From Alphaproteobacteria bacterium (GTDB lineage: Bacteria > Pseudomonadota > Alphaproteobacteria > Rs-D84): 40,806 bases of DNA. The stretch covers positions 1-40,806 of the forward strand of contig JAFXFG010000024.1 of the NCBI GenBank assembly GCA_017520675.1. The letters run 5' to 3'. Positions 1,755-14,866 of this stretch are shown in pieces. Positions within the stretch are counted from its first letter, which is position 1. Every line of letters begins with the position of its first letter. The notes beneath the pieces are model-generated. The model ran no database searches. It was not told where the DNA came from and saw nothing but the letters and a program-made list of their open reading frames with translations. A program made the position numbers and the translations under genes.

Positions 1755-1860
1755 TTTGACAGGGCAACTCGCGCAATTTACGAAATGATTTTTTTTATGA
1801 ATTGTTGTCGTTCGGGAAAGAAGTTAAAACATTTTTGCGAATTTTGTGATATAATTGTTC
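1755..1860 (+). repeat. Cassette junction module, copy 1 (right part, with promoter)
   Basis: Contains the core TTTGACAGGGCAACTCGCGC, then AATTTACGAAATGATT, GTTCGGGAAAGAAGTTAAAAC and an extended -10 promoter TTGTGATATAAT (TATAAT at 1850-1855). The same blocks in the same order occur at 4581-4685, 5471-5575 and 6251-6352. The promoter reads into the lipoprotein gene at 1892. Confidence 0.8.
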
Positions 1861-1891
1861 TGTAAAAAACAAATTACCAAAGGAGTAAAAA

Positions 1892-2284
1892 ATGAAAAAA
1901 TTATCTTTGTTAATTTTGCCAATAGCGGCCATATTACTTACAGCCTGTGAAAAAAAAGAAGATACAAAAAAGATAGAACGCTGTATCGACCAAATTTGTG
2001 AAAAGGTCGCATATGATGGTGAAAAACTATATGTATTAACCACTTTAAATGTTCATTCAAAAGACGGTCAGTCTGTTACAATGTATACGAATCATCAAGT
2101 AGAAATTCCAGCAGAAGAAGCTATTAAAATTTCAAAGAATTGGGATTTGAATAACATGAAATTATATACAAATACCGATAAAAAATTGCAAGAACACGAA
2201 AAAGATGCTTGTGAAACTTTATATAATTTGAATCTGTATATATCTTCACATGATTTAGACATTGTTCATGAATATGAAAAATAA
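1892..2284 (+). CDS. Small lipoprotein of unknown function
   Basis: 130 residues. MKKLSLLILPIAAILLTAC is a lipoprotein signal with lipobox LTAC (Cys19), so the protein should be lipid-anchored in the periplasm. The mature part is charged (KK, EKDAC) with Cys pairs; no family recognised. AAAGGAG at 1879-1885 is a strong ribosome site seven bases before the ATG. Transcription should come from the junction-module promoter at 1850-1855, and the hairpin at 2315-2345 ends it, so promoter, gene and terminator make one self-contained cassette. Confidence 0.8.
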   Translation: MKKLSLLILPIAAILLTACEKKEDTKKIERCIDQICEKVAYDGEKLYVLTTLNVHSKDGQSVTMYTNHQVEIPAEEAIKISKNWDLNNMKLYTNTDKKLQEHEKDACETLYNLNLYISSHDLDIVHEYEK

Positions 2285-2372
2285 TTCAAATATCCACAAT
2301 CAACACGAACCATGAAAAGGGTTGGTTTTCCAACCTTTTCTTTTTAAAAGTTCGTAAATGTGTGAAATGGTA
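2281..2372 (+). repeat. Cassette junction module, copy 2 (left part, with terminator)
   Basis: Begins at the stop codon of the lipoprotein gene: TTCAAATATCCACAATCAAC, then a terminator hairpin (AAAAGG(g)TTGG / CCAACCTTTT plus CTTTTT, 2315-2345), then GTTCGTAAATGTGTGAAATGG. It matches the copy at 6150-6240 almost base for base up to here and then breaks off. The right part of the module reappears at 3045, so a segment (2373-3044) seems to have been inserted into one module. Confidence 0.8.
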
Positions 2373-2403
2373 TCAAATTTCACCACCTGATTTATGTACT
2401 TGT

Positions 2404-2901
2404 TTACAATAAATACCTGACATCACAAATCGGTTTATGCTCTTTGTTGTACACAGGTTCTATTTTGTTATCTTTGATTTCAAATTTTTCAATTTTTGCC
2501 TTTGTGGGTTCTGTATAATCGGCACCGACATTTCTTGCCGCGCTTGTTATTAAAAATGGTTGAGTTTGGAATTTATAAGCACGCAGAAAACAATCGGCAC
2601 TTTCTTGGGTTGTTAATCGTGCCAGTTTTTCACCATTATCAAGGTATATATCATAAAAAGTATAAGAATGTGCGGTGCCCGTTACAAAGCGACCGCGCTT
2701 AATAGTATCTTTTACACCGTCATTATTAACATCAATATAAAAAGTATCTATTTGTTTTATTCCGTACTCATCCGACAAATTGAAAATTTCTGTTTTTTCT
2801 GGTGCGGGCAAACCATCAGAAAAATCACCAGTATATTCAACTTGTTTCGTACAAGCTGCACACATTAACAAGATAAAAAAATTAATCGACACTTTCCGCA
2901 T
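2404..2901 (-). CDS. Probable lipoprotein of unknown function
   Basis: 165 residues from ATG at 2901. MRKVSINFFILLMCAAC looks like a lipoprotein signal (Cys17, box CAAC, less canonical than LxxC), followed by a soluble domain with IDVNNDGVKDTIKRG, an FG-GAP/EF-hand-like Asp-rich loop, and a C-terminal beta-rich part. A longer reading to 3051 is possible but its first 50 codons overlap the MuF tail in another frame, so I choose the shorter start with the signal peptide. The first 20 nt overlap the end of the MuF remnant (stop 2884-2882), an operon-like arrangement copied from a phage. Function unknown. Confidence 0.65.
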   Translation of the reverse strand: MRKVSINFFILLMCAACTKQVEYTGDFSDGLPAPEKTEIFNLSDEYGIKQIDTFYIDVNNDGVKDTIKRGRFVTGTAHSYTFYDIYLDNGEKLARLTTQESADCFLRAYKFQTQPFLITSAARNVGADYTEPTKAKIEKFEIKDNKIEPVYNKEHKPICDVRYLL

Positions 2902-3031
2902 GACATCTGCATCCGTATTCTTCACCTGGATGTGGTGTATCATACCATGTTCTGACTTCGCCGTCCAGTGCTTCATGCTCTGGTCGAACTTCATCATCAC
3001 CAACAGTGACCCATCGTCTAAAAAAGCAATA
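2882..3031 (-). pseudogene. C-terminal tail of a second MuF-like head protein
   Basis: A 49-codon open frame read leftward, ending in TAA at 2884-2882, encodes RRWVTVGDDEVRPEHEALDG, then TPHPGEEYGCRCHAESVD. This is the classic end of MuF-type minor capsid proteins (D..RPEH..LDG, then HPG..YGCRC). It is cut by TGA at 3034-3032, where the junction-module sequence begins. It differs in sequence from the remnant at 1301-1571, so two different prophage fragments have been captured. No start codon: a fragment. Confidence 0.65.
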
Positions 3032-3044
3032 TCAAAACACCAAA

Positions 3045-3127
3045 TGTGCAATTCACGAGCTAATGAAATGCGTAATTTGTTGTTGTTCGGGAAAGAAACG
3101 AAATTATTTCTTCAAATTTTGTGATGC
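3045..3127 (+). repeat. Cassette junction module, copy 2 (right part, decayed)
   Basis: Contains TGTGCAATTCACGAGC, GTTGTTGTTCGGGAAAGAAAC and AAATTTTGTGATGCAAC, matching the right part of copy 3 (4594-4680). The -10 element is changed from TATAAT to TGCAAC, and the gene to its right runs leftward, so this promoter appears dead. Confidence 0.7.
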
Positions 3128-3133
3128 AACAAA

Positions 3134-4030
3134 TTATGAATAGATATTTTTATAAAAATCTTCTCTAAACTCTTTTACGGTTTTATATCTATCGTTTTTA
3201 TCGTAAGCCGTTGCTTTTAATAATACATTATAAATATTGTTATTTAATTCAAATTCATCAAATTTATTTGGTATAAAACATCCTTTTTTATACCTTTCCT
3301 CTGTATTTGAAATATTACTAAACATATCAAATATAATTGCACCCAATGTAAATAATGATGTTTGTTCGTCTATTGATGCACCTAATTCGTTTTCTTCGGG
3401 TGCTTTTAATCTTTTGGTTCCAAAATAACCTGTTCCAAAATCATTTACAGTTGGCATTTTTCTAAATAAATCTATATCACAAAAAGTGACTTCATCATTA
3501 TCAAAATCATAAATTATACTACTATCGTAAAAATCTACTGCAACATATCCCGCGTCAATAAATGATTCAAAAAACGAAAACAACTTATCCACAACATTCA
3601 ATCTTTTTTCTACTGGTAATGATTTGAATTTCATCAAAGGAGTTATTTCTTTGGTTTTTTCATATCTATCAAAGTTCCAATGATCAAACAAACATTCACC
3701 TTCCGCATATTCATAGATTACAACATAAAAATCTTTATATTCAAAAGCATCCACCAGTTTAATCAAATTTTCATGCTTAATATTTTTGTATTTTACTGCC
3801 GCTTCTTTTAATAATTTAATCGATTCTTCTTCACTTATTTCAGCATTAACTGTTTTTGCACCAGCAATTTTGAAAAAATATTTTTTATTGTCCTTTTTTA
3901 TACCAAAAGATATGCATCCGCTACCAGTTTCATCTATAACACTAAATACACTTCCATAATCATTTAACCAAGAAAAATCTTGATATTCACGTAATTTAAA
4001 CTCTATTCCATCTATCACTTGTTTAATCAT
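3134..4030 (-). CDS. Hanks-type serine/threonine protein kinase-like protein
   Basis: 298 residues, a single kinase domain without membrane segments. Visible motifs: glycine loop ETGSGC (35-39), VAIK-equivalent Lys54 in FFKIAG, catalytic-loop Asp166 in GYVAVDFYDSS, metal-binding CDIDLF (Asp185) in place of DFG, and an APE motif at 210-212. The catalytic-loop Lys and Asn of canonical HRDxKxxN are replaced. The phrase GYVAVDFYDSSIIYD..CDID is, from memory, characteristic of a kinase family frequent in Firmicutes, suggesting transfer. It lies 28 nt behind the GNAT gene at 4059-4508, likely one leftward operon. A ribosome site (AAAGAGA) precedes the ATG. Substrate unknown. Confidence 0.75.
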   Translation of the reverse strand: MIKQVIDGIEFKLREYQDFSWLNDYGSVFSVIDETGSGCISFGIKKDNKKYFFKIAGAKTVNAEISEEESIKLLKEAAVKYKNIKHENLIKLVDAFEYKDFYVVIYEYAEGECLFDHWNFDRYEKTKEITPLMKFKSLPVEKRLNVVDKLFSFFESFIDAGYVAVDFYDSSIIYDFDNDEVTFCDIDLFRKMPTVNDFGTGYFGTKRLKAPEENELGASIDEQTSLFTLGAIIFDMFSNISNTEERYKKGCFIPNKFDEFELNNNIYNVLLKATAYDKNDRYKTVKEFREDFYKNIYS

Positions 4031-4058
4031 ATTATTCTCTTTTATTTTTATACATGAA

Positions 4059-4508
4059 TTATAAATTTTTTATATAAACTCTAGTTGGGTTGCCTTCTCG
4101 GTTGTTCATGATTTTCCAGAATACAAAACCGTATTTCTCGTATAAACCTATATGGTCAGTAGATATATATACTTTTTCGATTTTATTGGATTTTAATGTA
4201 TCGCAAATACGATTTATCAATTTGCCGATATTGTTATTACCACGATATTTTGGAAAAGTATATGCAAAACCAATCCATGGGGATAATTCAGGTGCATCGA
4301 TTTCATCTTGTTCGGCTAAGATTGCGAAAGAAACCAAATTATCGCCATCTGTAAGTAGAAAAATCTTTGTCGATTTTCCACATATTTGTTTTAATTTATC
4401 GGTATTTAACCAAGAATACAACACTTTCGACGCTGACCAATCACCTTTACCTATTTCGTTTTTCCAGTGTTCTTGATTTTTTGATTTGTAATATTCAATA
4501 ATTTGCAT
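4059..4508 (-). CDS. GNAT family N-acetyltransferase
   Basis: 149 residues. The GNAT fold is seen in LVSFAILAEQDEIDAP (strand 2-4), the acetyl-CoA loop YTFPKYRGNNNIGKLINRI (about 88-106) and the C-terminal ISTDHIGLYEKYGF. It should transfer an acetyl group from acetyl-CoA to an amine, substrate unknown. Upstream, read leftward, are GTGATATAT (extended -10-like) and GAAAGG, so it has its own promoter and heads a two-gene unit with the kinase at 3134-4030. A different GNAT subfamily from those at 5601 and 7100. Confidence 0.8.
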   Translation of the reverse strand: MQIIEYYKSKNQEHWKNEIGKGDWSASKVLYSWLNTDKLKQICGKSTKIFLLTDGDNLVSFAILAEQDEIDAPELSPWIGFAYTFPKYRGNNNIGKLINRICDTLKSNKIEKVYISTDHIGLYEKYGFVFWKIMNNREGNPTRVYIKNL

Positions 4509-4537
4509 CTATTAACCTTTCAATCTAAATATATCAC

Positions 4538-4685
4538 AAAAAAGTTCGCAAGTCAGCAAAAAGGGAGGTGTTTTTGATTTTTGGCAGGGCCATCTGTGCA
4601 ATTCACGAGATGATACTATCTATGATTTGTTGTTGTTCGGGAAAGAAATAAAAACATTTTTGCAAATTTTGTGATATAGTTATTC
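4538..4685 (+). repeat. Cassette junction module, copy 3 (full core and promoter)
   Basis: GTTCGCAAGTCAGC opens the site; TTTTTGGCAGGGCCATCTG is the tRNA-like core (4579-4595); GTGCAATTCACGAGA closes it. Then come GTTGTTGTTCGGGAAAGA and TTTTGTGATATAGT (extended -10). The conserved terminator block of copies 2, 4 and 5 is missing because the gene on the left runs away from the site. The promoter drives the gene at 4703. Confidence 0.8.
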
Positions 4686-4702
4686 ATAAATAAAGGAAAA
4701 GC

Positions 4703-5362
4703 ATGGAAGAAAAAATAAAATCTATAATGTCCCAGATGCACACCATGTTTCATGATGCTGTCGGACCACGTTCGCGCCCAGATTACATGAAAGAACGCGG
4801 TGTTTCTGGCAGAGACTGGCATTTTAGGCTTTCTGCAGATGATATTATAAAAGATAAAATACCCGCAAATGTTGCGGGATGTACAGGGCGCGCAAAGCTG
4901 TTTTGCAAGTTGGCAGCTGAAAAGGGAATAAAAAGTTTTGTGGTTTGTACCGCAAAATATAACGATTGGAAAGCGACGCATGATGGCAAGGCAAATCATA
5001 TGAATGGACATCAAATAATAGCTGTTGAAATTGATGGGAAAATGCGTGTTTTTGATCCGGGACGAAAAGATTTGGTATTTATTGATACCAAGTTAGAAAG
5101 CGGGGAATTTATTGATGCAATCGACAGCGGGAAAAAAGAGTATATAGTTACAGCGATTGTACCGGGTGATGAATTTGCAAAAATGAATACATACCAACAG
5201 TTAAGTAATTTATATTCCAGTGGCGATATGAATAATTCTGCATTTACAATCAAACCACAAAAGACAAACATTTTTACCAGCGGCAAACAACAAGTAATCA
5301 ATAGAATTGCAAATATGATTCATCTCTTTGTGCATGGCAGGGAAGATAAACGAAGAGTTTAA
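4703..5362 (+). CDS. Transglutaminase-like (papain-fold) protein
   Basis: 219 residues, no signal peptide. A transglutaminase-like triad is visible in order: Cys60 in AGCTGRAKLFC, His103 in MNGHQIIAVEI and Asp118 in VFDPGRKD, with hydrophobic strands around each as in the family. Members act as proteases, amidases or cross-linkers; the substrate here cannot be told. The C-terminal 60 residues (from SSGDMNNS) carry no recognised domain. The start ATG follows AAAGGAAAAG. The gene is a single-gene cassette between junction copies 3 and 4, with the promoter on the left and the terminator on the right. Confidence 0.75.
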   Translation: MEEKIKSIMSQMHTMFHDAVGPRSRPDYMKERGVSGRDWHFRLSADDIIKDKIPANVAGCTGRAKLFCKLAAEKGIKSFVVCTAKYNDWKATHDGKANHMNGHQIIAVEIDGKMRVFDPGRKDLVFIDTKLESGEFIDAIDSGKKEYIVTAIVPGDEFAKMNTYQQLSNLYSSGDMNNSAFTIKPQKTNIFTSGKQQVINRIANMIHLFVHGREDKRRV

Positions 5363-5377
5363 TAGATTTCCTATAAA

Positions 5378-5580
5378 ATACCCACAATGAATACGAACTA
5401 AGGAAAAGGTTGGATTTCTAACCTTTTTTCATAAAAGTTCGTAAACGTGTAAAGCGGTGGTGTTTTTTATTTTGGCAGGGCAACTCGCGCAATTCACGAA
5501 CTGATTTTATGCGTGATTTACTGCTGTTCGGAAAAGATATTAAAACATTTTTGCAAAATTTGTGATATAATTATTCTTGA
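5378..5580 (+). repeat. Cassette junction module, copy 4 (full)
   Basis: Blocks in order: ATACCCACAATGAATACGAA; terminator AAAAGGTT/AACCTTTTTTC (5404-5430); GTTCGTAAACGTGTAAAGCGG; core TTTTGGCAGGGCAACTCGC (5470-5488); CAATTCACGAACTGATTTTA; GTTCGGAAAAGATATTAAAAC; extended -10 TTGTGATATAAT. The outer ends GTTCGT and ACGAAC are inverted repeats about 60 bp apart. Confidence 0.85.
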
Positions 5581-5600
5581 ACTATTAAAAAGGAAATATC

Positions 5601-6149
5601 ATGAACCGTAGCATAAAATTCAAATTAAAAAATGGTAAAGTTGTCACTATTCGCCGTATTCGTGGAACTGATTATGATGCTATGATGAATTTCTTTGATA
5701 AATTTGTTCGTGACCCCGGTGTAAAATACACAAGTCAATATCTTGGACAACCGAAAAAGAACAAAGAATCATGTGTTAAAATGTATGATAACCCAAATAA
5801 TTTATTTCTTGGTGCTTGGGATGGCGATAACCTGATTGGAGAATCCACAATTACAAGAATTGCACCAGAAAATCCAAAATATCGTGGCTTAACTGGCGAA
5901 ACAGGCAGTGTTATTTTGGATAAATATACTTCCCAAGGGCTTGGTAGCAAACTTAAAACTATGGTTGAAAAGTGGGCACGTGAAAATGGCGTTCATAAAC
6001 TTTATGCAGAAGTGTGTCACAAGAATATTCGTTCGTTAAACAACTTGTTAAAACATGGTTATCAGATTGTTGGTATTAAACACGATGCTGCAATAGTCGA
6101 TAAAGAATGGATGCACATATATATTCTTGAAAAGATATTGGAAAAATAA
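5601..6149 (+). CDS. GNAT family N-acetyltransferase
   Basis: 182 residues. TIRRIRGTDYDAMMNFF is a typical GNAT start, LFLGAWDGDNLIGESTI is the central sheet, and SQGLGSKLKTMVEKWA (about 130-145) is the Q/RxxGxG/A acetyl-CoA loop. The end NIRSLNNLLKHGYQIVG is the standard substrate-side helix and strand. It is closest in style to RimJ/RimL-like or PhnO-like broad acetyltransferases; substrate unknown. AAAGGAAATATC precedes the ATG. Single-gene cassette between junction copies 4 and 5. Confidence 0.85.
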   Translation: MNRSIKFKLKNGKVVTIRRIRGTDYDAMMNFFDKFVRDPGVKYTSQYLGQPKKNKESCVKMYDNPNNLFLGAWDGDNLIGESTITRIAPENPKYRGLTGETGSVILDKYTSQGLGSKLKTMVEKWARENGVHKLYAEVCHKNIRSLNNLLKHGYQIVGIKHDAAIVDKEWMHIYILEKILEK

Positions 6150-6355
6150 TTCAAATATCCACAATCAACACGAATTATGAAAAAGGTTAGATTTCTAACC
6201 TTTTCTTTTTAAAAGTTCGTAAATTGCTAAAACGGTGGGCGTTTTTGATTTTTGGCGGGGCAACTCGCGCAATTCACGAACAGAGTTTATTCATGAACTT
6301 TTATTGTTTGGAAAAGATATTAAGATATTTTTGCAGATTTTGTGATATAATGTAA
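6150..6355 (+). repeat. Cassette junction module, copy 5 (full, best palindrome)
   Basis: Starts at the stop of the GNAT gene. Terminator stem AAAAGGTTAG/CTAACCTTTT (6181-6204) with CTTTTT; left arm GTTCGTAAATTGC (6215-6227); core TTTTTGGCGGGGCAACTCGC (6250-6269); right arm GCAATTCACGAAC (6269-6281), which pairs with the left arm at 12 of 13 positions; then TTGTTTGGAAAAGATATTAAG and TTGTGATATAAT. The arms would fold the ~67-bp site into a long hairpin displaying the core. Confidence 0.85.
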
Positions 6356-6383
6356 CAAGAAATGGGTAAAAGGAAATAAAAAC

Positions 6384-7013
6384 ATGAATAAAAAATTACA
6401 GCTGTTGTTAGCAAATATCGCCTTGAATAATTCTCCTTATGGAACAGAATGGTATTCTGGGCCAAAACGTTTTGAAGATAGTTTAATTGCACGTGGTGTA
6501 AAACTTCCCCATAATTTATATTATAAATATAAATTACCAGGAGATACTGAACCAGAAGCTTATATGCAAAAACTGGCTTTATACAGTTTTTTTATTAATT
6601 ATGATTCTTGGGGATATGCTTGTTTAGAAGAAAACAAACAAATAACACAATCTGAAAAAGATTTGATAGTTAATGAAATTCATGCAAAACAAAAAGAATA
6701 TGCACAAAGTTTATTAGACGATGGTAAAGAATTGTTAAGATTGAATCCAAATTTGCGACACCTGTTGATTAATTCACAAAATGTTTTTGATGTTTTGTCT
6801 GGTGCTACTTTTTGGTACCTGCCACGCAATATAGAATATTTTATCGATTATAAAAAACGTGATATTAAAAAAGAACAAGAAAACTATGAAATTATTAGTA
6901 GTTTTGGTATAAAAGAATCATGTGGCATTCTTGCTCCAGAAATAGCAGACATGGTAATTTCAGCATTGAGGAAACACACAAATATCATACCCAATAAACA
7001 CAAAAATAGATAA
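6384..7013 (+). CDS. Hypothetical protein
   Basis: 209 residues, no signal peptide and no clear membrane segment, so probably cytoplasmic. It is rich in Lys, Asn and Tyr, with predicted helices around NEIHAKQKEYAQSLLDDGKE and a C-terminal ILAPEIADMVISALRKH. I recognise no family. AAAGGAAATAAAAAC precedes the ATG, and the junction-module promoter lies about 30 bp upstream. Only a shortened junction (7033-7075) separates it from the next gene, and no terminator is visible after it. Confidence 0.7.
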   Translation: MNKKLQLLLANIALNNSPYGTEWYSGPKRFEDSLIARGVKLPHNLYYKYKLPGDTEPEAYMQKLALYSFFINYDSWGYACLEENKQITQSEKDLIVNEIHAKQKEYAQSLLDDGKELLRLNPNLRHLLINSQNVFDVLSGATFWYLPRNIEYFIDYKKRDIKKEQENYEIISSFGIKESCGILAPEIADMVISALRKHTNIIPNKHKNR

Positions 7014-7032
7014 AGAGATACATTTTTGATTA

Positions 7033-7075
7033 AACAGTTCGTAAATGTGTGATTTGCAGATTTTGTGATATAATT
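7033..7075 (+). repeat. Cassette junction module, copy 6 (internally deleted)
   Basis: AGTTCGTAAATGTGTGA runs directly into TTTGCAGATTTTGTGATATAAT. The terminator, tRNA-like core, right arm and GTTCGGGAAAGA block are all missing, leaving the left edge joined to the promoter. The extended -10 is intact and should drive the operon at 7100-8493. Confidence 0.75.
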
Positions 7076-7099
7076 ACCCGCATAAACAACGAGGAAAAA

Positions 7100-7624
7100 A
7101 TGATTTATTATAATGAAAACGATATTTTAATCAGAGATTTGGCGGAAGCTGATGCTGAAGTACTTGCACATCAGGAACAATTACAGGGGCTGTTAGATAA
7201 GAAACCAGAAAGATATTTCCGTAGATTAAATGATGTTGCAAATGGTAAATGTGTGGCTCTGGTTGCTGAATACAAAGGTAATCCTGCTGGTTATATCAAT
7301 GTCTATTTTGATTCACAATGGGGTGCGTTTGCTGGTAAAGGTTGGCCAGAAATTATTGATATGAGAGTGCTGGAGAAATATCAAAAACATGGTATTGGTA
7401 ATAGATTAATGTTGGTTGCAGAAGATATATCAAAAAAATATGCAGATACTGTTTATTTGGGGGTTGGTGTAAATAGTAATTATGGTTCCGCATTCAGAAT
7501 GTATGTTAAACACGGATTTGTCCCAGACGGCACGGGTTTATGGCGAAATGATGAGCATTTAGAAAACTATACAGATATAAAATATGATGACGACGTTATT
7601 ATCTATATGTCAAAGAAATTTTAA
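7100..7624 (+). CDS. GNAT family N-acetyltransferase
   Basis: 174 residues from ATG at 7100, chosen because GAGG at 7091-7094 sits at the right distance; a longer frame to 7049 would start inside the promoter. ILIRDLAEADAEVLAHQE opens the fold, EIIDMRVLEKYQKHGIGNRL (about 93-112) is the acetyl-CoA loop with QKHGIG, and GVNSNYGSAFRMYVKHGF is the classical end. The stop TAA shares its last A with the ATG of the downstream phosphotransferase, so translation is coupled. A GNAT next to an APH recalls the fused aminoglycoside enzyme AAC(6')-APH(2''), but no drug specificity can be read here. Confidence 0.85.
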   Translation: MIYYNENDILIRDLAEADAEVLAHQEQLQGLLDKKPERYFRRLNDVANGKCVALVAEYKGNPAGYINVYFDSQWGAFAGKGWPEIIDMRVLEKYQKHGIGNRLMLVAEDISKKYADTVYLGVGVNSNYGSAFRMYVKHGFVPDGTGLWRNDEHLENYTDIKYDDDVIIYMSKKF

Positions 7625-8493
7625 TGGGTTTGAATATGAATGATTATTTGGCAATTATCAAAAAAACATTTCCTGAATTAGATATTCAAGATTTTTCTGT
7701 TTTTGGAAAGGGTAATTTGGCAGCAACTTGTTTGGTTAATAAAAACATTGTTTTTAAAATTACAGGTACAAGTGAAAAAGCCCTTAAAGATACAGAACAC
7801 GAAATATACCTTTTGAAACTGATAAACCATAATCTGTCATTTAATATCCCTAAAATTCTTTATGACGGTAAAATAAACAATGGTGGTTGGGTATTTGGTG
7901 AAAGTTTATTGCCAGGAATCACTTATTCCAAAGAATTACACGACAGTTTTGACAAAGATACCCAAACAGATATTTTACGTCAGATTGGTAAAGTTATGCA
8001 CGAATTACATTCTATCAAAGTCAATGACGACAAGAAATTGTTATTCGTTGGTGATTATAAACAAAATATTGCTATGTTTAACGAATACTTTTCTGACGAA
8101 GTTAAACAATGTTTCAGCCAATCAGATATTAAACGAATAAATACTGTTCGTGAAAGATATGAATATCTCTCTACTCATTATCCTGTTGAATTGGTTTTGG
8201 TGCACGCTGATATGCATTTTGGTAATTTTATGTTTGATACAGAACACAAAAAGATTACAGGTTTAATAGATTTTGGTGCAGCACATTTCTCAGAACCAGC
8301 ACGTGATATGCATTATTACTATGGCGAAGATATAAAACATATTTTGGAAGGTTATGGTGAAACCCGAGATACTTATTTACCAGAACGTCAGAAATTCCAT
8401 TCTGTAACAAACTTTCTGGAAAATATTGGTGGATATATACAAGAAAATTTATCCCCAGATAATGAAATACAAAGGTTGTTACATATTTTATAA
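7624..8493 (+). CDS. APH-family phosphotransferase
   Basis: 289 residues; the start at 7624 overlaps the preceding stop by one base (an alternative ATG at 7639 is possible). The protein has an N-lobe with VFGKGNLAATCLVNKNIVFKI, then LVHADMHFGNFMFD (His194, catalytic Asp196, Asn201) and LIDFGAAHFSEPARDM (metal-binding Asp216). These are the Brenner and DFG-like motifs of the aminoglycoside/choline kinase-like fold. The overall order resembles APH(2'')-type enzymes. It probably phosphorylates a small hydroxylated molecule using ATP or GTP. Co-transcribed with the GNAT at 7100-7624. Confidence 0.8.
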   Translation: MGLNMNDYLAIIKKTFPELDIQDFSVFGKGNLAATCLVNKNIVFKITGTSEKALKDTEHEIYLLKLINHNLSFNIPKILYDGKINNGGWVFGESLLPGITYSKELHDSFDKDTQTDILRQIGKVMHELHSIKVNDDKKLLFVGDYKQNIAMFNEYFSDEVKQCFSQSDIKRINTVRERYEYLSTHYPVELVLVHADMHFGNFMFDTEHKKITGLIDFGAAHFSEPARDMHYYYGEDIKHILEGYGETRDTYLPERQKFHSVTNFLENIGGYIQENLSPDNEIQRLLHIL

Positions 8494-8499
8494 TTAAAA

Positions 8500-8690
8500 A
8501 AGTTCGAAAGTTAGCAAAACGGTGTCTATTTTTAACTATCAACTTACGAACTCGTAGAATGCCTGAAAACAAAGAAAAAACCGACCACAAGGGTCGGTTG
8601 TAATCTTGGCAGCCCCATCTGTGCAAATCACGAGCAGAGTTTATGCGTGATTTGTTGTTGTTCGGGAAAGAAGTTAAAGTGTTTTTAGAT
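8500..8690 (+). repeat. Cassette junction module, copy 7 (tRNA-type core)
   Basis: GTTCGAAAGTTAGCAAAACGG (from 8502), CTTACGAACTCGT (8543-8555), a leftward terminator, then TTGGCAGCCCCATCTGTGCA with TGGCAGCCCCA at 8607-8617 identical to the end of tRNA-Glu. It continues with TTTATGCGTGATTTG, GTTGTTGTTCGGGAAAGA and AAGTTAAAGTG, but the -10 region is absent, so there is no rightward promoter here. The first 120 bp are duplicated at 9536-9660. Confidence 0.8.
8570..8599 (-). terminator. Leftward intrinsic terminator in junction copy 7
   Basis: Read leftward: AACCGACC-cttgt-GGTCGGTT followed by TTTTTCTTT. It follows the tRNA-3'-like core exactly as a terminator follows the real tRNA-Glu, and an identical hairpin sits in copy 8 at 9611-9639. 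Confidence 0.75.
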
Positions 8691-8692
8691 GT

Positions 8693-9469
8693 TTATTCAT
8701 ATTCTTTTAACGCATCAGACATAGCTTGTTGAGCAGCATTTTTCTTAGCGTCTTCAATCACTTCCTTTTGTTCTTTTAATTTGTCTGTTGCTACTTTTAA
8801 TACTTCGCTTTTATGTTCTGGATCAGAAACTAAAGCATAAGCTTGTTTAAATACATCCGCTTGAACCAAACGCAAACCAGCCGTATCACTGACTATATAA
8901 GCACCACCTTTGTCTGCTGTTTGTGGATGTCCTTCCGCTCCTTGAAATACTTCTCCTTCTTCAATAAATATTGCTTTGACGGTTTCTTTCTTTTTTGCAC
9001 CAACGAAAGCCATTCCTGGTTTAAGTTTATCTTTAGATGGTGCACCAATAAGATTTTCTGCAAAAGCGATATCGGTATCATAAACATCTGCTTTGCCAGT
9101 ATTTGGATCAATAGCGTTTTGTTTCAAAAATTCAACAAACTTAGTCAACCCGTCTGCAGATTCAAACGTTTGTGGATTTTTTTTGATATATTCATCCACT
9201 TTTGCTTTTAGTCCAGGTGCATCATACATTATAAAACACCCGTCTTGTTGTTTTAATACCTGTTTTGCATCATCTTTCGGGTTGTAAAATACAAAACCTT
9301 TGACATCGTATTCTTTTGCTTCATAAGTTGGTGGTAACCAATCAACACGTTTAGCATCAACAGCCCCAGAAAAACCATAAGCAGGAACAACTAGACGCTT
9401 TTTATCGGTTGGAGAATACACTTTTTGATTTTTTTCAATAAGTTGTTGTGCTTGTTCAATTGTAATCAT
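8693..9469 (-). CDS. Hypothetical protein (single-gene cassette)
   Basis: 258 residues, no signal peptide. The N-terminal half is mixed (LVVPAYGFSGAVDAKRVDWL), the middle has GHPQTADKGGAYIVSDTAGL, and the last 50 residues are a Lys/Glu/Ala-rich helix that may form a coiled coil (KLKEQKEVIEDAKKNAAQQ). No family recognised. AGAGG precedes the ATG read leftward, and GATATAAAA may be a -10 element. It lies between two near-identical junction copies (8500-8620 and 9536-9660), so it is the most recently delimited cassette and the one nearest the tRNA. Confidence 0.65.
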   Translation of the reverse strand: MITIEQAQQLIEKNQKVYSPTDKKRLVVPAYGFSGAVDAKRVDWLPPTYEAKEYDVKGFVFYNPKDDAKQVLKQQDGCFIMYDAPGLKAKVDEYIKKNPQTFESADGLTKFVEFLKQNAIDPNTGKADVYDTDIAFAENLIGAPSKDKLKPGMAFVGAKKKETVKAIFIEEGEVFQGAEGHPQTADKGGAYIVSDTAGLRLVQADVFKQAYALVSDPEHKSEVLKVATDKLKEQKEVIEDAKKNAAQQAMSDALKEYE

Positions 9470-9535
9470 ATTTTACCTCTTTTATTTTTTATATCAGACA
9501 GGGTAATAATACCAAAATTTTACATTTTTGGCAAT

Positions 9536-9660
9536 AAAAAGTTCGCAAATTGTCAAAACGGGCTGTGTTTTTAACACCCAGCTTACGAACTCGTGAAAGC
9601 ATTAGAAAACAAAGAAAAAACCGACCACAAGGGTCGGTTGTAATCTTTGGCAGCCCCAAC
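9536..9660 (+). repeat. Cassette junction module, copy 8 (tRNA-proximal, tRNA-type core)
   Basis: GTTCGCAAATTGTCAAAACGG, CTTACGAACTCGTGAAAGC, leftward terminator hairpin (9611-9639) and CTTTGGCAGCCCCAAC with TGGCAGCCCCA at 9648-9658. About 100 of the first 120 bp match copy 7. It is a direct repeat of copy 7, and its core is again the tRNA-Glu 3' end. Confidence 0.8.
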
Positions 9661-9835
9661 ATCGCGCCTTGACAACCAATAATCAAACCTAGACGCAAAA
9701 ACTCTATTAACCATATCCGTTTTTGCAGGTTTGCTAATTGTTCGTCTGCGTATTCGCCATGCGTGCCTGTGGGCGTTGCCCACGAAAACTGCGTTTTCAT
9801 ATGGTGCATACGCACCAATATCGGCACTCTGGCGT
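9661..9835. other. Gene-free stretch between array and tRNA-Glu
   Basis: Short frames cross this stretch on both strands but none has a ribosome site or a recognisable family, and some are continuations of the tRNA sequence. No confident gene seen. It may be the worn end of an older cassette. Confidence 0.4.
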
Positions 9836-9913
9836 ATCCGGTTGGGACTGCTGATTCAAAATAAAAAGACCACCGAAATGGTGGTCGTTTTATTTTGGCA
9901 GCCCCAACCGGAT
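9836..9913. repeat. 78-bp imperfect palindrome containing the tRNA-Glu 3' end and terminator
   Basis: Left arm from 9836 (ATCCGGTTGGGACTGC, then AAAATAAAA and GACCACC) pairs with the right arm ending at 9913 (GGTGGTC, then TTTTATTTT and GCAG.CCCAACCGGAT) around a five-base loop at 9875-9879. The left arm has a 6-nt insertion (TGATTC), one extra A and one G-to-A change. It is therefore a mirrored copy of the tRNA-Glu T-arm/acceptor end. The inner part, GACCACC-attt-GGTGGTC plus TTTTTATTTT read leftward, is the tRNA terminator. Confidence 0.85.
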
Positions 9914-9971
9914 TCGAACCGGTGTTCTCGCCTTGAAAGGGCGGTGTCCTAGGCCTCTAGACGATGGGGCC
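9896..9971 (-). tRNA. tRNA-Glu (anticodon TTC)
   Basis: 76 nt read leftward, with CCA encoded at the 3' end (9898-9896). Acceptor GGCCCCA pairs with TGGGGCT; the anticodon loop is CTTTCAA and the T-arm GGTTCGAATCC. Its 3' end (GGGGCTGCCA) is repeated in the junction modules of the neighbouring cassette array, which makes this gene the probable integration target. Confidence 0.95.
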
Positions 9972-12787: not shown

Positions 12788-14866
12788 ATGACATACAATG
12801 AAATCAGACAGACCTTTTTAGACTATTTTAAATCCAAAGGACACCAGATTGTGCCATCTGCATCTTTGATACCGAATGACCCCAGTCTGTTGTTCACTGT
12901 TGCTGGAATGGTCCCATGGAAGGGGATATTACAGGGGACCGAGCCTGCATTTGCACCGCGCGTCGCAGATGTTCAAAAGTGCATTCGTGCCGGTGGCAAG
13001 CATAATGATTTAGAAGATGTTGGTTTTGATGGTCGTCATCACACTTTTTTCGAGATGCTAGGCAACTGGTCTTTTGGCGATTATTTCAAGGAACAAGCGA
13101 TTGAAATGTCGTGGGAATTATTGACCAAGGTTCTGGGGCTGGACCCCAATCGCATTGTTGTTACAACACATTACAGCGATGACGAAACCGTAAAAATCTG
13201 GAAACAGGTTGCCGGCAAAGACGCAATTTTATTGGGCGATAAAGACAATTGGTGGTCTGCTGGGGAAACAGGTCCATGTGGCCCATGTACTGAAATGCAC
13301 TATGATATGGGGGCGGATTTGGCTGGTGGACTACCTGGAACGCCAGACGAAGACGGTGGTCGTTATGTTGAAATCTGGAACGATGTATTTATGCAATATG
13401 ACAGGGATGCCAACGGTAACCTGACACCATTACCGCGCCAGAATGTTGATACTGGGGCGGGTTTGGAACGTTGGGCGGCTGTTATGCAGAATAAACTAGA
13501 CAATTATGATACAGATTTGTTTATGAACTTGAAACGCGCAGTCAGTGAAATCACAGGTGTTGCGGAAACGGCTGAAAATGTTGCCAGTTTCAAGGTCATC
13601 ACAGACCACCTGCGCAGTGTTGGTTTCGCGATTGCAGACGGTGTACTGCCATCAAACACAGACAGGGGCTATGTAATTCGTCGTATTTTGCGTCGTGCGA
13701 TGCGTCATGGTCAGATTTTGGGTCATCGTGGTGCATTGTTGTCTAAATTGTATCCTGCGTTGATAACAGAAATGGGTGCGGCGTATCCTGAACTTGAACG
13801 CGAACAGGCGCGCGTGGTTGAGATTATACAGAACGAAGAAAATTCATTTGCAGATATGTTGCAAAACGGTATGAAGTTGCTAGAAAATGAAATTCCAAAA
13901 CTAAACAATGGCATTTTACCTGGCGATATTGCGTTCAAGTTGTTTGACACTTATGGTTTTCCGTTGGATTTGACCCAAATGATTTTGCGCGACAAGAACA
14001 TAGAAGTTGATGTTGCCGGCTTTGAAAAATCGATGGCTGAACAGAAAGAACGTTCGCGCGCGAATACCAAGGGTACGCGTATATTCTGGGAATCTCAGAC
14101 GGATTTAGCCGACACAGACGACAGTGCAAAATACGCACCAATTGATATGGAATCGCGTGTTTTGTCGATTTTACGCAATGGGGAATTTGTTGCGACTGCC
14201 AACGCAGGGGACGAAGTTGAAATTGCGCTGGATAAAACTAATTTCTATGGCACCCAAGGCGGTCAGGTTGGCGACAGTGGCGAATTAAAAGTTGGTGAAA
14301 ACACAGTTATGTCAGTGGTTGAGGCTGCGCGTGTTGACAACATAGTAATTCACAAAGGTACATTGACTGCAGATATAAAAGTTGGCGACATTGTAAAACC
14401 TGTGATTAACGCGAACGTGCGTCAACAGACTGCGCGCGCCCACACTGCGACACATTTATTGCAATCGGCGCTTCGCGCGGTCTTGAACGAAGATGTTGAA
14501 CAGCGCGGTTCCAAGGTCAGTCCTGATTCCGTTCGCTTTGACTTTTCGTTTGGTCGCCCAATGACAGCCGAAGAAAAACAAGCGGTTGAAGATATGGTAA
14601 ATTCTTGGATTGCCTCTGATATACCTGTTTTGCACGAAGAAATGTCAATCAAAGACGCAACCGCGCGCGGTGCGATGGCATTGTTTGGCGAAAAGTATGG
14701 CGATACGGTCAAGGTCATAACAGCTGGCGATGTATCGTGTGAATTGTGCGGTGGTACACATGTTTATCACACTGGTGAAATCTTAAAAGCCAAGATAAAC
14801 AAGGAAAAATCCATCAGCAGTGGCATTCGTCGAATAACAATGTCTGTTGGGACCTTGGCAGAATAA
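12788..14866 (+). CDS. alaS: Alanyl-tRNA synthetase, lacking the C-Ala domain
   Basis: 692 residues. It charges tRNA-Ala with alanine. The N-terminal class II core is complete (RQTFLDYFKSKGH, FTVAGMVPWKGILQG, RAGGKHNDLEDVG, GRHHTFFEMLGNWSFGDYF), followed by the tRNA-recognition region (RRILRRAMRHG) and the editing domain with zinc ligands HTATH (His552, His556) and CELCGGTH (Cys654, His658). The protein stops about 34 residues after this motif. Family members are usually around 870-890 residues because of a coiled-coil plus C-Ala domain, missing here; a terminator follows at once, so this is not a frameshift. Nothing in the window encodes a separate C-Ala. Confidence 0.97.
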   Translation: MTYNEIRQTFLDYFKSKGHQIVPSASLIPNDPSLLFTVAGMVPWKGILQGTEPAFAPRVADVQKCIRAGGKHNDLEDVGFDGRHHTFFEMLGNWSFGDYFKEQAIEMSWELLTKVLGLDPNRIVVTTHYSDDETVKIWKQVAGKDAILLGDKDNWWSAGETGPCGPCTEMHYDMGADLAGGLPGTPDEDGGRYVEIWNDVFMQYDRDANGNLTPLPRQNVDTGAGLERWAAVMQNKLDNYDTDLFMNLKRAVSEITGVAETAENVASFKVITDHLRSVGFAIADGVLPSNTDRGYVIRRILRRAMRHGQILGHRGALLSKLYPALITEMGAAYPELEREQARVVEIIQNEENSFADMLQNGMKLLENEIPKLNNGILPGDIAFKLFDTYGFPLDLTQMILRDKNIEVDVAGFEKSMAEQKERSRANTKGTRIFWESQTDLADTDDSAKYAPIDMESRVLSILRNGEFVATANAGDEVEIALDKTNFYGTQGGQVGDSGELKVGENTVMSVVEAARVDNIVIHKGTLTADIKVGDIVKPVINANVRQQTARAHTATHLLQSALRAVLNEDVEQRGSKVSPDSVRFDFSFGRPMTAEEKQAVEDMVNSWIASDIPVLHEEMSIKDATARGAMALFGEKYGDTVKVITAGDVSCELCGGTHVYHTGEILKAKINKEKSISSGIRRITMSVGTLAE

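Follow-up and report, generated by a model that had tools for sequence, protein, structure and literature searches.

Tandem gene cassettes at tRNA genes of reduced alphaproteobacterial genomes, with ends that appear to derive from large serine recombinases

The window analyzed here (bases 1-40806 of contig C22, a 40,806-nucleotide stretch of an alphaproteobacterial genome of 1.11 Mb in 46 contigs) contains a tandem array of gene cassettes of ~1 kb (1756-9895), which runs leftward off the 3' end of a tRNA-Glu(UUC) gene (9896-9971, minus strand). We propose, with a probability of roughly 0.78, that this array consists of stacked non-autonomous, mostly single-gene cassettes whose attachment (att) ends derive from large serine recombinases (LSRs), and that an LSR acting in trans inserted them at the tRNA-Glu 3' end. 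At the level of sequence, the proposal draws on the anatomy of the cassettes, their anchoring at tRNA genes, the LSR ancestry of a palindrome in their right ends, the loss of the LSR reading frame there, a frame shared at the core, sister families at other tRNAs and one core-exact pair of cassettes between species. Coordinates refer to the window unless a fetched locus (L numbers) is named; G numbers denote genomes, and all comparisons used one genome per species.

An exact-word scan of named genomes located the left-end sequence of these cassettes in ~40 contigs of alphaproteobacterial metagenome-assembled genomes of rumen, horse-gut and chicken-gut origin, among them Candidatus Enterousia, a genus of reduced genomes within the order Rs-D84 (PMC12306168). 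The genome containing the window is of the Ca. Enterousia type.

Cassette anatomy

Two direct-repeat families, D1 and D2, present in five and six copies and spanning 136 and 103 nt, lie between unrelated genes. Profiles of the cassette ends, built from all arrays (about 50 left and 36 right ends), detected left ends at six places in the window (1760, 3039, 4585, 5476, 6256 and 8611; E 1e-16 to 3e-20), along with two complete right ends (8498, E 1e-16; 9536, E 2e-21), four truncated ones (2345, 4539, 5432 and 6210) and a fused remnant (7030-7074). Repeats and profiles confirm the junction copies described in an earlier reading of this DNA made without database searches (the sequence-only reading). 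The extended -10 promoter that it saw in the junctions, TGTGATATAAT, is present at four places in the window, where 0.03 occurrences would be expected.

From left to right, a unit starts with a TTGGCAG core and a left end (GGCCATCTGTGCAATTCACGA...GTTCGGGAAAGAAATTAAGG...), in many cases followed by a promoter; then come the cargo, on one strand or the other, a right end (AAAAGTTCGTAAAT...TTACGAACTCGTGAAAGTATTAGAAAAC), a tRNA-type terminator and the next TTGGCAG. The right end combines a 52-nt palindrome with a replacement terminator for the tRNA. An attB-like target core, TTGGCAG, lies at the tRNA-Glu 3' end itself (9895-9901). There the core reads TTGGCAG/CCCCA, and between cassettes it reads TTGGCAG/GGCC. 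The internal form is the junction expected where a new left end meets TTGGCAG, and is therefore not an eroded tRNA end. The sequence-only reading had taken the core to become TTGGCAGGGCA with distance from the tRNA; this sequence is instead a hybrid junction found in nearly every internal copy, with TGGCAG/CCCC marking the tRNA and TTGGCAG/GGCC the left junction.

The module at 6150-6355, formerly regarded as a full copy, has neither the right palindrome arm nor the tRNA-type terminator; right ends are complete at 8492-8605 and 9531-9646. Arm and terminator are missing at 4540-4580, 5430-5471 and 6210-6251, apparently through deletion between two short AACGGTGG repeats. The palindrome arms read GTTCG(N)AA..TT(N)CGAAC within the 52-nt unit and do not follow the attC core rule of integrons (RYYYAAC/GTTRRRY), in agreement with the sequence-only reading, which also correctly recognized that promoters come with the cassettes and that their orientation is mixed. 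Folding the right end as a single strand gave mixed z-scores (-0.6 to -3.4), and for this reason we do not claim a folded-site mechanism.

Anchoring at tRNA genes

A search with the 6150-6360 module was positive in 36 of 99 genomes, all of one genus. Within the window's own genome, its strong matches all fall in this array and the remaining ones are marginal. Against Rfam, two tRNAs alone exceeded the threshold. In no fewer than 16 further species of the genus, a tRNA-Glu gene likewise bounds the array. Wherever a 20 kb locus that included the tRNA was retrievable, the array ran off the 3' end of tRNA-Glu(UUC) or, in the single case of L078, of tRNA-Glu(CUC). Modules scattered with no link to tRNAs would have spoken against insertion at a tRNA, and the junctions proved to be tied to tRNAs. 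The sequence-only reading knew of the tRNA-Glu site alone; arrays with other cores are present at tRNA-Gln, Pro, Tyr, Asn, Met and Glu(CUC). Across the order, a model of the right end matched in 94 of 142 genomes and 9 of 20 genera, counts that include matches within LSR genes.

More right ends of the cassette type occur elsewhere in the window's own genome (L310 on G000:C33; L311 and L312 on G000:C8; L313 on G000:C3). Four stand in tandem at tRNA-Gln(CUG), one is at tRNA-Met, one or two lie near tRNA-Tyr and, less certainly, one is on a contig bearing tRNA-Glu(CUC).

Large serine recombinases as the source of the ends

The right-end covariance model (R1) matches just downstream of, or within, genes for LSRs of ~490-540 amino acids with Resolvase, Recombinase and zinc-ribbon domains. 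All three domains (PF00239, PF07508 and the zinc ribbon) were detected in the LSRs of L300, L302, L306 and L350, and two of the three in that of L368. These genes lie across or directly against tRNA 3' ends, namely those of tRNA-Glu(UUC), Glu(CUC), Gln(CUG), Gln(UUG), Pro, Asn, Tyr, His and Arg, so that a recombinase with PF00239, PF07508 and a zinc ribbon lies beside an att site, as in autonomous LSR elements. The palindrome, AGTTCG..CGAACT, forms the 3' end of the LSR coding sequence itself (AGT TCG AAA GTA ... CTA CTT TCG AAC T, encoding SSKV...LLSN). It measures 52 nt in each of the 26 LSR genes where it was detected, and the same length was measured in 40 of 40 cassettes. When scored with a right-end profile made from tRNA-Glu cassettes only, 26 of 35 LSR 3' ends exceeded the best of 222 control gene ends (top score 23.1 bits, against 5.0 bits for the best control).

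In the cassettes, the LSR frame is interrupted by stops in all 38 tRNA-Glu right ends tested, with the palindrome retained. Its arms covary (18 paired-change cells, against at most 4 in slid controls). Loss of the frame with retention of the arms through paired changes indicates that the palindrome matters as DNA in cassettes.

Immediately after the core, the left end encodes WQGHLCNSRxDFIxDLLxFGKEIKxFL and a stop codon in one plus-strand frame. Single-base codon differences in that frame are synonymous in 42-44% of cases, compared with 16-25% in the two other plus frames, and 2 of 200 column shuffles reached the observed value. One minus frame gave 45% but contains stops in 14 of 46 copies, whereas the coding frame has none in any of the 46. 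We identified no long open reading frame (ORF) in the genus that ends in this peptide. Searches of Pfam and PHROGs with the tail peptide returned no match, phage and plasmid records contained no credible match to the tail, and a single match among viral contigs is chance-like.

The frame of the tail corresponds to that of the LSR genes, which cross the core in frame: as TGG CAG, or W-Q, at tRNA-Glu (L300, L350, L352, L355 and a remnant in L138), as W-L at tRNA-Gln and as W-S at tRNA-Pro. Cassette left tails use the same frame as the LSR at the same tRNA (W-Q at Glu; W-L at Gln in L310 and L315; W-S at Pro in L165 and L368). On a single contig from another genus of the family (L368), a GNAT cassette with the tail WSGLLCNLRTNHFKELVELAKKI adjoins, at tRNA-Pro, a unit with the tail WSGLISAYRTNNLTDFISLAKKI, with MFS and GNAT genes as cargo and with an LSR gene that ends at the tRNA; both tails are in the W-S frame and look similar when compared by eye. 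Read most simply, the tail would be the native LSR C-terminus of a circular element, left behind at the left end upon integration.

By profile and palindrome for the right end, and by reading-frame match for the left, the att ends of the cassettes thus appear homologous to those of LSR elements. Remnants of LSR 3' ends also adjoin tRNA-Glu(UUC) in L138. In G159, a larger element starts, at the end of a contig, from the last left end of a long array; a different contig begins with an LSR that abuts tRNA-Glu(UUC), and the two contigs probably join into one element.

The sequence-only reading had expected an integrase nearby, a tyrosine recombinase or another kind. None lies beside the array, and the ends point to LSRs at tRNA genes of other genomes rather than to a tyrosine recombinase. 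The fetched tRNA-Glu arrays contain no tyrosine recombinase, nor the arrangement of IntI beside attI that marks integrons, and several array genomes have only two ORFs matching Phage_integrase.

It is improbable that a different recombinase, for example XerC/XerD or the tyrosine integrase of a prophage, mobilizes the cassettes. All genomes encode XerC/XerD-like proteins, among them array genomes in which nothing else matches Phage_integrase (for example G028, G045 and G015), and the two-sided ends, with their repeated ACGAAC motifs, at first resembled the arm sites of tyrosine integrases. However, about 40 long tyrosine-integrase loci have no cassette ends beside the gene, the ends match the LSR gene itself, and we saw no dif-like site by eye.

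Two other kinds of serine recombinase were considered and rejected, a second LSR type as the source of the ends and small enzymes as mobilizers. Elements of the second LSR type also abut tRNA-Glu(UUC) in four genomes (L067 16364-17941 in the oriented locus, L155, L156 and L159). The C-terminus of this LSR differs, and the right-end model matches nothing in L155, L156 and L159 and the cassettes alone in L067. Small serine recombinases (~200 amino acids) occur near a few arrays but are mostly scattered. In four genomes (L255-L258) they belong to a tRNA-Arg(UCU) element, which pairs a tyrosine integrase of ~400 amino acids with a 198-amino-acid serine recombinase.

Exchange of cassettes between species

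Gene order in the array differs between species; the same genes in the same order in related strains would have counted against repeated insertion. Individual segments of the array are highly similar in other species: 1773-3013 is 95.5% identical to L064, 4624-5398 is 94.8% identical to L135, 7053-8688 is 92.2% identical to L067 and 3076-4575 is 88.9% identical to L063. In the same species, DNA to the right of the tRNA is 71-83% identical to the window. Taken over all comparisons, the cassettes that species have in common are 89-96% identical, against 71-85% for their flanks. The cleanest shared cassette joins L065 (7021-8278) and L079 (9331-10590), which are 96% identical over 1260 nt. Identity opens exactly at TTGGCAGGGCC, with unrelated neighbors to the left, and stops exactly at TTGGCAG, beyond which one locus continues with another cassette and the other with tRNA-Glu. 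These comparisons indicate that cassettes have been exchanged between species, and the array shares with integrons the property of being an ordered series of small gene cassettes shared laterally.

The exactness of these boundaries bears on a different view of the units, as scars of dead LSR elements that lost the LSR and most other genes and are now disseminated and shuffled only by homologous recombination between conserved ends. We consider this unlikely, though several observations agree with it. The window's genome and many others lack an LSR, some ends are decayed (the core is lost at 3039, and the right ends at 2345, 4539, 5432 and 6210 are truncated), and the ends offer ~200 bp of shared sequence for recombination. 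Against it stand the L065/L079 breakpoints at TTGGCAG on both sides, the covariation of the palindrome arms after loss of the LSR frame, a left-end tail free of stops in 46 copies, and the occurrence of similar units at several tRNAs, each with its own core.

Proposed mechanism

In the model of LSR-dependent cassettes, the autonomous element carries an LSR gene at its right end, with a reading frame that crosses a core equal to the last few bases of the tRNA (the CCA end). Integration at this core would leave the tRNA 3' end complete and supply it with a new terminator; it would also swap the last codons of the LSR for antisense sequence of the tRNA, while the original LSR tail would remain at the left end of the element. 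Cassettes retain the core and both ends, the left one with the LSR-tail segment and the right one with palindrome and terminator, but have cargo in place of the LSR. An LSR in trans may excise them as circles and insert them at the tRNA core, new cassettes stacking beside the tRNA, and sister families with other cores would act likewise at other tRNAs. The sequence-only reading had likewise invoked repeated insertion at the tRNA-Glu 3' end with boundaries in the core, and this account holds. Its further suggestion that the newest cassettes lie next to the tRNA is likely, although the direction of growth, like the circular intermediates, catalysis by the LSR in trans and the route of transfer between cells, is something we infer.

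Several observations weigh against this model. We saw no circle and no movement, with one genome available per species. Similarity between the tails of LSR elements and those of tRNA-Glu cassettes is weak, a profile made from cassettes only giving nothing below E 8 in L300 or L368. Cassettes devoid of an LSR keep the LSR-tail frame open in 46 of 46 copies, which the model does not fully explain; a recent origin, repeated exchange with LSR elements or the supply of a C-terminus to a neighboring LSR are possible causes. Finally, an LSR of the palindrome-bearing family was found neither in the window's genome (95% complete; E 1e-20) nor in several other array genomes. Mobilization in the window's genome must then depend on an outside LSR, or has ended, and the array is best described as integrase-less and comparable to clusters of attC sites lacking integron-integrases (CALINs).

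More tentatively, at somewhat short of even odds, we envisage a serine-recombinase counterpart of the integron: genome-wide, tRNA-specific arrays, each fed by its own LSR with an att site inside its own gene, where integration rewrites the C-terminus and may switch the enzyme between insertion and excision.

Relation to known systems

Integrons are the textbook example of single-gene cassette stacking and require a tyrosine recombinase together with folded attC sites. A similar outcome appears to have arisen here from LSRs at tRNA genes, in host genomes of about 1 Mb where little lateral gene flow might be expected. If confirmed, these arrays would represent a second route to cassette stacking and a source of tRNA-specific serine integrases with natural 3'-end targets at nine tRNA types. 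They would also make testable the question of whether exchange of the LSR C-terminal tail on integration controls the direction of recombination. We found no description of serine-recombinase-derived cassette arrays in the open-access literature, subscription papers being outside the search.

Like integron arrays and CALINs, the arrays consist of tandem, mostly single-gene units with varied cargo at one reserved insertion site. Integrons differ in that IntI is a tyrosine recombinase, whereas the cassettes here have ends derived from a serine recombinase, a tRNA 3' anchor and no attC core rule, and come with their own promoters, in mixed orientation and in several tRNA-specific families. That the array is a true integron of the CALIN type with divergent attC sites is hardly credible. 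Its right end is palindromic, and its gene organization and cargo resemble those of sedentary integron arrays; yet the arms read GTTCG..CGAAC rather than RYYYAAC..GTTRRRY, a tRNA gene serves as the anchor, LSR genes contain the palindrome, and no integron integrase was identified among the Phage_integrase matches, although no specific intI search was run. Integron arrays without an integrase can be mobilized in trans (PMC11389934).

The staphylococcal cassette chromosome (SCC, including SCCmec) and its enterococcal counterpart (ECC) use CcrAB LSRs at rlmH, with attB in the 3' end of this conserved gene, which stays intact, and multiple attR sites have been reported (PMC6222049). The arrays described here share LSR chemistry and a target at the 3' end of a conserved gene. 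They differ in unit size (~1 kb with one or two genes, versus tens of kb), in targeting a tRNA and in that the att palindrome forms part of the recombinase gene. In place of ccr genes and an attB in rlmH, the site is tRNA-Glu, sister sites are other tRNAs and the cassettes of the window contain no recombinase.

Cargo is also stacked at tRNAs in tycheposons and additive islands, and the final 20 bp of tRNA-Lys have been reported to recur within an additive island of Ca. Methylopumilus (Methylophilaceae) (PMC10872708). Tycheposons are tRNA-bounded elements of 4-200 kb with a tyrosine recombinase, whereas the cassettes are short units (~1 kb) of apparent LSR origin with defined ends, and the array contains no tyrosine recombinase. 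Derivatives of transposons of the type of miniature inverted-repeat transposable elements (MITEs) likewise lack autonomy and are delimited by the ends of an autonomous element, but the cassettes are site-specific at tRNA ends and carry protein-coding cargo. Integrases of the SSV type target tRNA genes and, like the LSRs described here, contain the attachment site within the integrase gene, which is altered by integration. They differ in that these LSRs are bacterial, belong to the serine class and exchange the C-terminal tail alone, whereas archaeal SSV1-like integrase genes are split on integration (PMC6563490).

Layout of the array and its cargo

Cargo names rest on similarity alone, and features are on the plus strand unless noted. 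Left of the first cassette, a 3' remnant of a second-type LSR gene ends in TARAPWIFNKKSAQMDGKSDL (1690-1755); ORF 1606-1788 matches the C-terminus of the 525-amino-acid LSR that abuts tRNA-Glu in L067. The left end of cassette 1 (1756-1855), with the core variant TTGACAG, an LSR-tail coding segment and the promoter TGTGATATAAT, precedes a putative lipoprotein gene (1892-2284), its terminator with a degenerate right end (2285-2409) and a gene for a putative secreted protein (2404-2997, minus strand). A left end that has lost its core (3039-3125) is followed by genes for a protein-kinase-like protein (3134-4030) and a GNAT acetyltransferase (4059-4508), both on the minus strand, and by a truncated right end detected by profile, the left palindrome arm (4539-4580).

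The next unit opens with TTGGCAG and a left end whose tail reads WQGHLCNSRDDTIYDLLLFGKEIKTFLQIL before the stop (4581-4678), and continues with a gene without a Pfam match (4703-5362) and a cargo terminator with a truncated right end (5376-5471). Core, left end and promoter (5472-5571) then precede a second GNAT acetyltransferase gene (5601-6149) and another cargo terminator with a truncated right end (6150-6251). In the unit that follows, the core variant TTGGCGG, left end and promoter (6252-6351) lead into a gene without a Pfam match (6384-7013). A fused junction remnant, in which a right-end arm is joined to a promoter (7030-7074), separates it from genes for a GNAT (7100-7624) and an APH-type phosphotransferase (7624-8493). 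These end at a complete right end (8492-8605; palindrome 8501-8552 and tRNA-type terminator). The last protein-coding unit comprises TTGGCAG with a left end bearing the LSR-tail segment WQPHLCKSRAEFMRDLLLFGKEVKVFLD (8606-8700), a gene for a 258-amino-acid protein without a Pfam match (8693-9469, minus strand) and the second complete right end (9531-9646; palindrome 9540-9591 and tRNA-type terminator).

Between this unit and the tRNA, TTGGCAG is followed by an ORF-less module of ~245 bp (9647-9894). ORF-less modules of ~180-245 bp are stacked at tRNA-Glu in other loci as well (L067 12010-12251, L136 10430-11016, L140 13761-13999 and L161 14399-14884). They have a tRNA core at the boundary, a tRNA-type terminator at the end and, in many, a long inverted repeat, and are possibly miniature relatives of the cassettes. 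Across arrays, GNATs are the commonest cargo (up to 6 of 70 cluster representatives), alongside kinases and APH, HAD hydrolases, MFS transporters, deaminases and MORN repeats; some cargo resembles candidate defense genes.

Additional elements in related loci

In G006, a 3 kb unit at tRNA-Glu (L136 11016-14017) encodes a DUF2779 protein and a 196-amino-acid tyrosine recombinase and ends in an apparent LSR 3' remnant. A 195-amino-acid protein of L314 (12140-12724), encoded close to the left end of what may be an LSR element, matches excisionase/regulator families (PHROG 66, E 3e-8) and is a candidate directionality factor. In the tRNA-Asn array of L299, a weak match to the filamentous-phage G2P/ORF2 replication initiator (12992-13489) lies a few kb from the LSR gene. 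Two 'Bacteriophage sp.' records from human feces (L369, MT837677.1; L370, MT836653.1) contain LSRs of the palindrome-bearing family that end at tRNA-Leu and tRNA-Glu, beside ordinary-looking bacterial genes, and may represent bacterial fragments rather than phages.

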